NCBI GenBank assembly: GCA_937916845.1
Contig: CALFSK010000036.1
Location: forward strand, 1 to 34,465
Reading direction: 5' to 3'
From: an uncultured Lactobacillus sp.
GTDB taxonomy: Bacteria; Bacillota; Bacilli; Lactobacillales; Lactobacillaceae
DNA: 34,465 bases
The notes below the pieces were generated by a model. It did not search any database. It had not been told where the DNA came from and saw only the letters and a list, made by a program, of their open reading frames with translations. Shown in pieces: positions 2,894 to 4,919 of the stretch (position 1 is the first letter of the stretch; every line of letters starts with the position of its first letter). Both the position numbers and the translations under genes were made by a program.

Positions 2894-4546
2894 TTACTGG
2901 GCAACGTACGCATACTTATAATTCCACTGAGTACCGGCTGTGTTGTGAATAATACCTTTGACCTTCGGATTTTGCAAGTAGGAATAAACCGTCTGATAAA
3001 GCGGTGTAATCCCTTGGTCCTGCATAATCGTCCGTTCCGCCTGAAGCATATCTTGCCAGCGGGCGTTCGTATTATTCGCATCCTGATCTTGCGCCTTTTT
3101 CACTAGTGAATTATACGTTGAACTGTTGTACTTCCCATAGTTATAGCCACTATTCGACGTCATAATCTGCAAGTGTGAAATTGGGTCGTTAAAGTCGGCA
3201 CCCCAACCACTTAGGTAAATATCAAAGTTTCCCGATTGGGCCCGGCTCTGAGCAACCTTGGCTGGAATGTTAGATAAATCGACCGTCAAGCCACTCAGAT
3301 TCTTTTCCAGCGCGGACTTCAAATACTGTGAAATTGGCTTGTTAGGCTCATCATTAGACGTTAACATGTGTAACGTTAACTTCTTCAAACCGGTCTCTTT
3401 CAACCCTTGCTGCCATAACTGCTTTGCTAGCGCAGTATCGTAAGACGTCGAATCTTTAACGACTGATTCATCCGAGAAGTCTTTGCCACTCTTAGGATCA
3501 TTAGCTAAGTCCTTTGGTACGAACGTCTGAGACGTGGTCGAGGCATCCCCGATCACGTTTTTAACTAACGTGTTACGGTTGATCGATAGTGAAATTGCCT
3601 GACGAATCTTTTCGTTGTTTAACGCCTTTTTAACCGTGGCGTTGCTATCTTTAAAGTTATAGACCAAGAACGCGGTGATGGAATATGGATAAGTCGTGTA
3701 ATCACTATTGCTCTTCATATTCTTAACTTGTTCGCTGGCCAACTGCGTTAAGTCCAATTTTTTCTCTTGGAAGAGGTTCAACGTTGTGGTTGTACTTTCG
3801 TTGACCGTGTAATTGATCTTTTGTAAATGAACGGCTTTTTTATCCCAATACTGGTCATTCTTAACGAATTGCCATTTGTTATTAGTCCCCGTCCAACCGG
3901 TTAACTTGAATGGCCCACTGTAAAGCATGTATTGAGCCTTCGTCGCGTAATTACTGCCCCACTTCTTAACCGCTTTTTCACTGATTGGTCCAAATAGTGG
4001 GTACGTCATTAATTTCTTAAAGTAACTAATTGGTTTCTCCAAAGTGACGATAAACGTGTGCTGACCCTCAGCTTTTACACCAAGTGTGCTTGGAGACTTC
4101 TTACCAGCAACGATTGCGTCAGCATTTTGAACACCTGAGAATAGGTAGGCGTACTGCGATTTAGTGGCCGGTGTCACCGTGCGTTTCCATGAATAAACAA
4201 AATCCTGTGCCGTAATTTTGGAACCATCGCTCCATTTGGCATCTCGAATCGTAAAGGTATACGTCTTCCCATCTTTAGAAACCTTCGTCGCTTTAGCTAA
4301 GCCCGGTGTGATACTACCGTTCTTGCCCAAGCGGTATAAGCTTTCAAAAATATTCCCGGTACTGCCATAACCGGACATGTTGGAAATATCAATTGAATCA
4401 AGTGAACTTGGATAAGATAAATTTAAGACTTGATTGCTGGCGTACTTTCCGTTGCCCGTGCTTTGACCACTCTGCTTGCCACAGGCTGCCAACACCGTCA
4501 CTAACAATAAACTAAAAATAACCGTTAACACTGATCGCTTTTTCAA
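2894..4546 (-). CDS. oppA: Oligopeptide ABC transporter substrate-binding lipoprotein (OppA family)
   Basis: This is an extracytoplasmic peptide-binding protein (SBP family 5) that hands peptides to an Opp permease. The signal peptide has K2-K3-R4, a hydrophobic core and lipobox LAAC, so Cys22 would be lipidated and anchor the protein to the outer face of the membrane. The mature part is normal length (550 aa precursor), with an N-terminal LNLSYPSSLDSID strand typical of the family. The start is TTG at 4546 with GGGG about 9 bases upstream. No permease or ATPase genes are adjacent, so it is an orphan receptor that probably works with an Opp system elsewhere. A promoter, Met/Cys-rich leader peptide and terminator precede it, suggesting control by sulfur amino acid supply. 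That would suit uptake of Met- or Cys-containing peptides (inference). Confidence 0.92.
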   Translation of the reverse strand: MKKRSVLTVIFSLLLVTVLAACGKQSGQSTGNGKYASNQVLNLSYPSSLDSIDISNMSGYGSTGNIFESLYRLGKNGSITPGLAKATKVSKDGKTYTFTIRDAKWSDGSKITAQDFVYSWKRTVTPATKSQYAYLFSGVQNADAIVAGKKSPSTLGVKAEGQHTFIVTLEKPISYFKKLMTYPLFGPISEKAVKKWGSNYATKAQYMLYSGPFKLTGWTGTNNKWQFVKNDQYWDKKAVHLQKINYTVNESTTTTLNLFQEKKLDLTQLASEQVKNMKSNSDYTTYPYSITAFLVYNFKDSNATVKKALNNEKIRQAISLSINRNTLVKNVIGDASTTSQTFVPKDLANDPKSGKDFSDESVVKDSTSYDTALAKQLWQQGLKETGLKKLTLHMLTSNDEPNKPISQYLKSALEKNLSGLTVDLSNIPAKVAQSRAQSGNFDIYLSGWGADFNDPISHLQIMTSNSGYNYGKYNSSTYNSLVKKAQDQDANNTNARWQDMLQAERTIMQDQGITPLYQTVYSYLQNPKVKGIIHNTAGTQWNYKYAYVAQ

Positions 4547-4603: not shown

Positions 4604-4647
4604 AAAAAACGCCCGCTTAGAATCTCGTCAGATTCCAAGCAGGCGTT
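4604..4647 (-). terminator. Leader (attenuator) terminator ahead of oppA
   Basis: On the minus strand the stem AACGCC-t-GCTT-g-GAATCT pairs with AGATTC-t-AAGC-g-GGCGTT around the loop GACG and is followed by a T-rich run. Two single mismatches interrupt an otherwise 16-bp stem. It lies after the leader peptide stop (4677) and 58 bases before the oppA start, on the path between promoter and gene. Transcription must pass it to reach oppA. Confidence 0.85.
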
Positions 4648-4676
4648 TCAAAAATAACGTTTTGAGCTCAATGCCG

Positions 4677-4784
4677 TTAATTTTGATGCACTAGAGACGC
4701 TTGTAATTCAACGCAAATAACCATGTTGTTAGGTTCACAACATGGGCAGCACATCATCATTTGTTGGTTAGCTGACTTTTGCAT
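4677..4784 (-). CDS. Met/Cys-rich leader peptide of oppA (35 aa)
   Basis: A 35-codon ORF starts MQKSANQQ and then reads MMMCCPCC at residues 9-16, with one more Met (21) and Cys (24) later. GGAGAG sits 8 bases before the ATG, and a near-consensus promoter lies just upstream. Codons 14-16 (CCA TGT TGT) are exactly the 5' arm of a perfect 9-bp hairpin (4737-4745 with 4721-4729). The Shine-Dalgarno bases AGAGACG (4790-4796) can pair with CGTCTCT (4693-4699) near the end of the ORF. A terminator stands between it and oppA. Runs of regulatory codons, nested hairpins and a terminator are the classical ribosome-mediated attenuation layout. I infer sensing of charged tRNA-Met and/or tRNA-Cys. It could alternatively be a small Cys-rich protein with its own function. 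Confidence 0.8.
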   Translation of the reverse strand: MQKSANQQMMMCCPCCEPNNMVICVELQASLVHQN

Positions 4785-4817
4785 GATTACGTCTCTCCGA
4801 TTTCATAAGATGTGTAC

Positions 4818-4847
4818 AGTATAGATTTAGCCACTTACTTTTGTCAA
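4818..4847 (-). promoter_or_regulatory. Promoter of the leader peptide-oppA unit
   Basis: On the minus strand a perfect -35 TTGACA (4842-4847) and -10 TATACT (4818-4823) have an 18-base spacer. Transcription would start near 4811, leaving about 27 bases before the leader peptide ATG. Confidence 0.85.
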
Positions 4848-4880: not shown

Positions 4881-4919
4881 AAAAATGCTGCACTACCCTT
4901 AGTAGTCACAGCATTTTTT
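4881..4919 (-). terminator. Intrinsic terminator of the rapZ-yvcK-whiA operon
   Basis: On the minus strand AAAAATGCTG-tg-ACTAC pairs with GTAGT-g-CAGCATTTTT around a 5-base loop, ending in T. It begins 4 bases after the whiA stop. Confidence 0.85.

Follow-up and report, generated by a model that had tools for sequence, protein, structure and literature searches.

The leader region upstream of oppA

The window, by which we mean the whole stretch of 34,465 nucleotides analyzed here, belongs to a genome that is Lactiplantibacillus-like, judged by its relatives. It carries a gene for an oppA-type peptide-binding lipoprotein preceded by a compact leader, and all leader parts lie with oppA on the minus strand. 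The features are listed below in the order of transcription, with the evidence on which each rests.

4818..4847, minus strand: sigma-70-type promoter, with TTGACA (4847-4842), an 18-nt spacer and TATACT (4823-4818); 11 of 12 consensus matches
4795..4798, minus strand: Shine-Dalgarno sequence GGAG of the leader ORF, 10 nt 5′ of the ATG, a rather long spacing
4789..4796, minus strand: 5′ strand of helix P1, AGAGACGU, overlapping the Shine-Dalgarno sequence and pairing with 4700-4693; from covariation
4677..4784, minus strand: leader ORF, 35 codons and a stop, MQKSANQQMMMCCPCCEPNNMVICVELQASLVHQN; from the ORF list, alignment and peptide profile
4737..4760, minus strand: MMMCCPCC, codons 9-16, the proposed regulatory codons; from the codon table of 22 copies
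4737..4745, minus strand: 5′ strand of helix P2, CCAUGUUGU, codons Pro-Cys-Cys, pairing with 4729-4721
4721..4729, minus strand: 3′ strand of helix P2, ACAACAUGG; from predicted fold and alignment
4699..4707, minus strand: proposed antiterminator strand AUUACAAGC, codons 26-29, pairing with 4640-4632 (8 of 9 bp); from invariant columns and ribosome-masked folding
4693..4700, minus strand: 3′ strand of helix P1, GCGUCUCU, codons 29-31; from covariation
4648..4686, minus strand: P3, a predicted hairpin that spans the leader stop codon and pairs 4686-4675 with 4659-4648
4632..4640, minus strand: proposed antiterminator partner GCUUGGAAU in the terminator 5′ arm; invariant, whereas the opposite terminator arm drifts
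4604..4649, minus strand: intrinsic terminator, a hairpin (4649-4606) and a T run from 4609; 20 pairs by a permissive count
2894..4546, minus strand: oppA-type peptide-binding lipoprotein gene, the proposed target, with a TTG start; SBP_bac_5, E 9.7e-80

The promoter, the 35-codon ORF with MMMCCPCC at codons 9-16, the terminator and oppA had all been named in an initial annotation of this DNA, and each of them is present in the window. The ribosome site that it called good has its GGAG at a rather long spacing. Across the alignment of leader copies, GGAG is found in all except L022 (GAAG), with L016 reading GGGAG. The promoter match alone is not significant, as a simple scan of 1 kb gives one promoter-like site against a shuffle mean of 2.0; both hexamers, TTGACA and TATACT, are kept in 22/22 leader copies. 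The leader RNA is predicted to fold better than 200 of 200 shuffled sequences (z -5.97). Between the 3′ end of whiA and the leader promoter lies an inverted repeat, AAAAATGCTGTGACTACTAAGGGTAGTGCAGCATTTTT (window 4881-4919, minus strand), which looks like the whiA terminator.

A T-box (RF00230, with stem I carrying the specifier loop and the GGGTGGNACC antiterminator) or another known RNA family was considered for the leader and rejected for want of a match. In the window, every Rfam family, among them the T-box, stays below its cut-off, and none of six weak matches near the leader is a T-box, in agreement with the initial statement that no T-box motif is present. Elsewhere in this genome the T-box model gives 31 matches at E<=1e-4, none of them in the oppA leader.

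Conservation of the leader in Lactiplantibacillus

The search of related lactobacilli that the initial annotation had proposed finds leader and ORF in 21/21 Lactiplantibacillus genomes, compared with a leader DNA match in 0/20 genomes from other genera. The 21 genomes provide 22 copies, genome G001 having two, and an oppA orthologue with 74-100% amino acid identity follows the leader in all 21. The ORF is open in 22/22 copies with start codon and frame kept; a variable N-terminus gains and loses codons, and beyond it the peptide runs through the CCPCC block to NMxICVxLQAS. A profile of the peptide, searched against 397 genomes of the family, matched 25, comprising 21/21 from the genus and four weak matches elsewhere (L053-L056), which lie over long unrelated ORFs and were set aside as chance matches.

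Conservation is not uniform along the peptide. Cys codons 12, 13, 15, 16 and 24 are kept in 22/22 copies, as is CCPCC, and Cys codon 13 varies only synonymously (TGC in 11 copies, TGT in 11). Met codon 10 is likewise found in 22/22 copies, with full MMM in 18/22; among the deviants at codons 9-11, L017 and L018 read Leu-Met-Asn and L019 reads Ser-Met-Thr, so that a single Met codon precedes its Cys run. Residues 20, 21, 23-25 and 27-30 are as invariant as CCPCC, residues 22 (Ala/Val) and 26 (Glu/Gly/Lys) vary, and Ile23-Cys24 is invariant without a conserved RNA partner. The expectation that the Met/Cys run would be conserved and other codons would drift is borne out for CCPCC, but MMM is looser and other residues are invariant as well.

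The 114 invariant columns of the leader point to selection, because the four-fold sites of oppA and whiA in other species are only ~30-52% identical to those of the window; the close sister L002 is the exception, with 79% and 83% (oppA, whiA). The terminator is kept in 22/22 copies. The 23 nt of its arm and loop, CTGCTTGGAATCTGACGAGATTC (window 4620-4642), are letter-perfect in 22/22 copies from 21 genomes, and no further match within 3 mismatches exists in these 21 genomes. The conserved loop within CTGCTTGGAATCTGACGAGATTC is not accounted for by the attenuator model set out below.

RNA helices and terminator arms

Helix P1 joins AGAGACGU at the ribosome site to GCGUCUCU in codons 29-31, with 95.2% of the alignment cells paired; slid versions of the helix reach only 25-49%. 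Changes affecting both partners are seen in 10 cells, where shuffles average 2.0 (0/500 as high), and the substitutions can be followed directly in the alignment, where one pair occurs as AU, UA, CG, GC and UG and another as CG and UA. With 2 covarying pairs and 6 pair types P1 is ordinary, 195 and 222 of 500 shuffles being as high, and the P1 statistics that stand out are the percentage paired, the cell count, in which the cells are those of related sequences, and the score only.

P2 is a helix of 9 bp, CCAUGUUGU/ACAACAUGG, invariant in 22/22 copies and thus mute on covariation either way. P3 is predicted in 22/22 copies and shows a paired change, CCAAU/AUUGG, in L013 and L014. The two arms of the terminator differ in their stability over time, with 1/16 variable columns in the 5′ arm and 6/16 in the 3′ arm. 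A steadier 5′ arm is what one would expect if this arm has a second partner.

A predicted antiterminator switch

Folding was calculated on transcripts cut before the terminator 3′ arm, with everything up to the ribosome masked. The probability of the CAAGC:GCUUG pairing at the core of the proposed antiterminator is 0 to 0.20 in 22/22 copies when no ribosome is present. It rises to >=0.75 in 21/22 with a ribosome at C12 (L020 0.32) and in 21/22 with a ribosome at C15 (L005 0.60), and is <=0.06 in 20/22 with the ribosome at the stop codon (0.82 in L009 and L011). The stalled-ribosome mask rules out P1 by construction, which has to be borne in mind when these values are read.

A two-state test (free<=0.1, stalled>=0.9) is passed by 15/22 real copies, L020 just on the line, compared with 4/400 sequences with a shuffled terminator arm and 0/400 with shuffled codons 17-stop; the latter shuffle also destroys P1, which makes the shuffled terminator arm the fairer control. 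The stalled value alone (>=0.9) is not rare in shuffles, being reached by 43 and 31 of 400. When total pairing of the arm is followed through three states (free<=0.25, stalled>=0.75, stop<=0.35), 10/22 copies qualify against 10/400 shuffled arms. A stop-state cut-off of <=0.1 is missed by the real sequence too (0.25), and the looser and two-state criteria were used instead.

We regard formation of the antiterminator AUUACAAGC:GCUUGGAAU with a stalled ribosome, as predicted by these foldings, as likely but unproven. The energy of the duplex is ordinary (225/1000 shuffles are as good) and was not used as an argument, and the helix never varies and thus has no covariation support. Only a portion of the terminator arm is taken up by the antiterminator. 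Any such switch must be kinetic because the complete terminator should win at equilibrium.

A second copy in the place of a T-box

The second copy in genome G001 (L022) encodes MQMMCCPCC, has the same terminator and precedes a different transporter, an amino-acid ABC operon (L031) with two permeases, an ATPase and a receptor. Nearest to that receptor are 2yjp (E 2.2e-77) and 1xt8 (E 4.2e-70), which we take to be cysteine-binding proteins of Neisseria and Campylobacter. The receptor is found in 4/21 genomes of the genus (E<=1e-40), and the other three receptors are 81-85% identical to it. In those three genomes the operon is preceded by a T-box, matched by cmscan in L076 (E 4.8e-19) and L077 (E 1.3e-15), both below the gathering score, and by a like sequence in L078.

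All three T-boxes have the specifier context GAA-G-AUG, that is, AUG. These specifiers were taken from the cmscan alignments except in L078, where a regular expression was used; this expression gave a second candidate in L078 and L077, and in the window genome it overlooked many T-boxes or read them wrongly. Specifier reading was checked on ten aligned T-boxes of that genome: seven gave AUG, one CGC and one (L124) UGG after UAA, and one (L138, thrS-like, with the weakest score) did not fit. Those reading AUG include the T-boxes before metA-, metN-, metE- and metC-like genes, and the CGC one precedes argS, the gene names being our reading of the sequences. By these comparisons, the leader peptide of one species occupies the place held by a Met T-box in its relatives, a swap within the genus. 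In L. paracasei, too, a cysteine-type transporter is described as preceded by a Met T-box, and the authors assume that cysteine is imported for methionine synthesis (PMC6004538, accessible text).

Cysteine-codon leaders before cysteine biosynthesis genes

A second group of leaders, here called type B, came to light upstream of cysteine biosynthesis genes. Strong cysE matches occur in 6/21 genomes of the genus and not in the window genome; the cysE profile TIGR01172 never reaches its curated cut-off in the genus, and the six matches at E<=1e-56 were accepted as cysE. Four of the operons were opened (L178-L181); in each, cbs-cblB-cysE is preceded by another promoter, GAGGAGG, an ORF of the form M(S/T)Q...NNCCCRTxRxxRCSxC and a terminator, which contains GGGCGCG in three and GAGCGCG in one. 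Rough folding of these four finds the terminator arm paired upstream when stalled in 4/4 and when free in 2/4, and was not used to argue for a switch. The possibility that the oppA leader is itself a type-B leader (NNCCCR...RCSAC, GGGCGCG terminator) was dropped, its sequence being different.

A profile built from three type-B peptides recovers the same six genus genomes at E<1e-12 (G002 weakly, 0.03), whereas the window genome gives none at E<=0.05. Among 397 family genomes it matched 64 at E<=0.05. In all 30 loci returned among these profile matches (L182-L211), the gene that follows is cysteine/cystathionine synthase-like (28, including five judged by the motif NPGGS) or cystathionine lyase-like (2).

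Type-B leaders extend to plasmids of L. paracasei and L. rhamnosus, where the leader stands before the same operon (cysK-ctl-cysE) in the three records opened of 587 matched. Two of these three carry AAGGGCGCGAAA-N16-TTTCGCGCCCTT, a motif given for cysK2-ctl1-cysE2 of L. paracasei FAM18149 (PMC6004538). According to the accessible text of that report, this operon is expressed more highly in Cys-deficient than in Met-deficient medium and has a terminator and high coverage of its 5′ UTR, and neither a T-box nor a sensor was identified, with premature termination proposed by the authors. For T-box leaders the same text notes that RNase III fragmentation may also raise 5′ UTR coverage, and some of the coverage in L. 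paracasei may be of this origin. By comparison through the related plasmids rather than through FAM18149 itself, we infer that the Cys ORF could be the sensor of cysK2-ctl1-cysE2.

Some hints come from expression data on Lactiplantibacillus plantarum. The 25 genes raised at pH 5 include lp_0783 (log2 2.61) as well as cysE, cblB and cbs (3.18-3.69) (PMC7645587, in the part accessible). We take lp_0783 to be the present oppA by its position, without comparison of sequences, because lp_0786 is clpP in the accessible source text and, in the window, clpP lies two genes away from oppA. Co-regulation of lp_0783 and cblB is not constant, since the two change in opposite directions in a cadmium proteome (+2.77 and -3.54; PMC5430759, accessible text).

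Proposed mechanism and alternatives

The best account of the oppA leader, and one that we hold with considerable confidence, is that of a translation-dependent attenuator sensing the charging of tRNA-Cys, perhaps with that of tRNA-Met. Without a ribosome, or once the leader is fully translated, P1 and P2 would form; AUUACAAGC would then be unavailable, the terminator would fold and transcription would end before oppA. A ribosome waiting at codons 9-16 would instead hold P1 and P2 open, and the freed AUUACAAGC could capture the nascent GCUUGGAAU of the terminator 5′ arm, so that RNA polymerase would read into oppA. The presumed outcome is more peptide uptake as a source of sulfur amino acids. 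What the sequences show is that the parts exist and are conserved, that P1 covaries and that the same leader stands before another transporter; that the ORF is translated and the terminator works in vivo, that the antiterminator forms and that Cys or Met is the signal are steps that we infer.

Ribosome-mediated attenuation by Met/Cys was the reading of the initial annotation, to which the helix at the Shine-Dalgarno region and the alternative antiterminator are additions. Sequence comparison gives good support to the mechanism class, attenuation tied to sulfur amino acids, through the conserved Met/Cys run, the covarying Shine-Dalgarno helix, the second copy and the second Cys-leader family. 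The part given to methionine has weakened, as the Met codons are looser than the Cys codons (18/22 against 22/22). Cysteine is the likelier signal, and methionine a possible one, because the Cys codons are strict, recur in the type-B leaders and lie in part at positions that no conserved helix includes. Two further points weigh against the account: Met genes of the window genome are already served by Met T-boxes, so that a Met leader would be redundant, and RNA polymerase outruns ribosomes in Firmicutes, which argues against tight coupling. Reporters have nonetheless been used to examine a Leu attenuator in Staphylococcus aureus, that of ilv-leu (PMC5794164, accessible text).

Could the leader respond to methionine, with the stall at Met codons 9-11 and the Cys codons kept for RNA structure? 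The presence of Met at codon 10 in 22/22 copies and of MMM in 18/22 would fit, as would the Met T-box found in three relatives before the transporter that has the second leader copy. We nevertheless think this unlikely. Codons 9 and 11 are lost in L017, L018 and L019, the last keeping one Met before the Cys run, and Cys12 and Cys13 lie outside P2 and are still present in 22/22, codon 13 changing only synonymously. Three aligned type-B peptides have the Cys run without a Met run, a point tempered by one further type-B ORF, L211, which starts MMMLM.

The amino acid sequence may matter in another way, if the nascent peptide MMMCCPCC...NNMxICVELQAS were itself the sensor and arrested the ribosome with a ligand (a metal, an oxidized thiol or an antibiotic), operating the same RNA switch. 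Invariance of CCPCC and of residues 20, 21, 23-25 and 27-30 exceeds what a codon sensor needs; Ile23-Cys24 in particular, invariant without a conserved RNA partner, counts against codon sensing because a codon sensor needs no such residues, and CC-P-CC could bind metal. The rise of lp_0783 in acid together with copper ATPases (PMC7645587, accessible part) and its rise in the cadmium proteome (PMC5430759, likewise) would also fit. Much of the conservation, on the other hand, coincides with P2, P1 and the antiterminator strand, residues 22 (Ala/Val) and 26 (Glu/Gly/Lys) vary, and type-B leaders before cysteine genes share the Cys codons and not the peptide sequence, all of which makes this explanation improbable in our view. 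Still harder to sustain is a stand-alone small protein or terminated small RNA, in which the terminator would end the unit and oppA would have its own promoter downstream. It could explain why 23 nt of terminator arm and loop are identical at 22 sites in 21 genomes, like the seed of a trans-acting RNA, but the leader stands directly before oppA in 21/21 genomes, its second copy stands ahead of a cysteine-receptor-like transporter, the 21 genomes contain no free-standing copy, and the simple scan finds a single promoter-like site in 1 kb. Attenuation responding to tRNA-Cys charging remains the reading that we prefer.

Relation to known systems

In the trp, his and leu attenuators of Escherichia coli and Salmonella, a short ORF with regulatory codons and a terminator are combined with an alternative folding set by the ribosome. 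The oppA leader likewise has a short ORF, proposed regulatory codons and a terminator, with the alternative folding predicted here; unlike these systems, it uses Met and Cys codons, precedes a peptide-receptor gene and has a covarying helix over its own Shine-Dalgarno region. Cys runs in a short upstream ORF are also found in the leaders of Mycobacterium cys operons (PMC1262725) and in uORFC-8-2 before cysS of Rhodobacterales (PMC8632094). The latter shares a terminator with the oppA leader, whereas the mycobacterial leaders have no obvious one. Both belong to other phyla and other genes, and the accessible parts of the two reports describe no Met run and no Opp gene.

Within the Firmicutes, leader peptides are reported to replace T-boxes (PMC2965389 and PMC5794164, each in its accessible part). 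Staphylococcus aureus ilv-leu (PMC5794164) and hisS/hisZ of bacilli (PMC2965389) resemble the oppA leader in having codon runs and a terminator where a T-box is expected, but concern Leu or His and biosynthesis or synthetase genes rather than Cys/Met and transport. Met and Cys T-boxes of Lactobacillaceae (PMC2494555 and PMC6004538, accessible text) let tRNA charging control sulfur amino acid uptake by termination, as we propose for the oppA leader; they differ in that the RNA itself reads the tRNA, and the oppA leader lacks T-box elements. The L. paracasei cysK2-ctl1-cysE2 leader (PMC6004538, accessible text) would, by our reading, also be a Cys-codon leader with a terminator, although its ORF and RNA sequence are unrelated to those of oppA and its operon is biosynthetic.

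The mechanism class is thus already known, and Cys leaders are on record in Actinobacteria and alpha-proteobacteria (PMC1262725 and PMC8632094, accessible parts). In a largely open-access literature search, none of the titles and abstract openings among the matches listed mentions a leader peptide upstream of oppA or of cys genes in lactobacilli. As far as that search shows, three things look new: the Opp receptor as target, a helix at the ribosome site of the leader itself, and a pattern of Cys leaders across the family. We lean toward a broader view in which the cysteine regulon of Lactobacillaceae is run largely by leader-peptide attenuators and not by Cys T-boxes. Type B would govern cysK/cbs-ctl-cysE in many genera, an independent type A would govern oppA throughout Lactiplantibacillus, and in one species type A would have replaced the Met T-box of a cysteine-type transporter. 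If true, the L. paracasei operon repressed by Cys would thereby gain the sensor that it lacks, in a concrete and testable form. Control by tRNA sensing in lactobacilli has mostly been described in terms of T-boxes, and the leader before a peptide receptor, the copy in the place of a T-box and the second Cys-leader family would mean that a large part of the cysteine response in this lineage runs through leader peptides.

The window genome also holds an oppA-like paralogue, L124 (C67:104700-106680), with a T-box whose specifier reads UGG (Trp), and judging from these sequences its various Opp receptors may be under the control of different amino acids.
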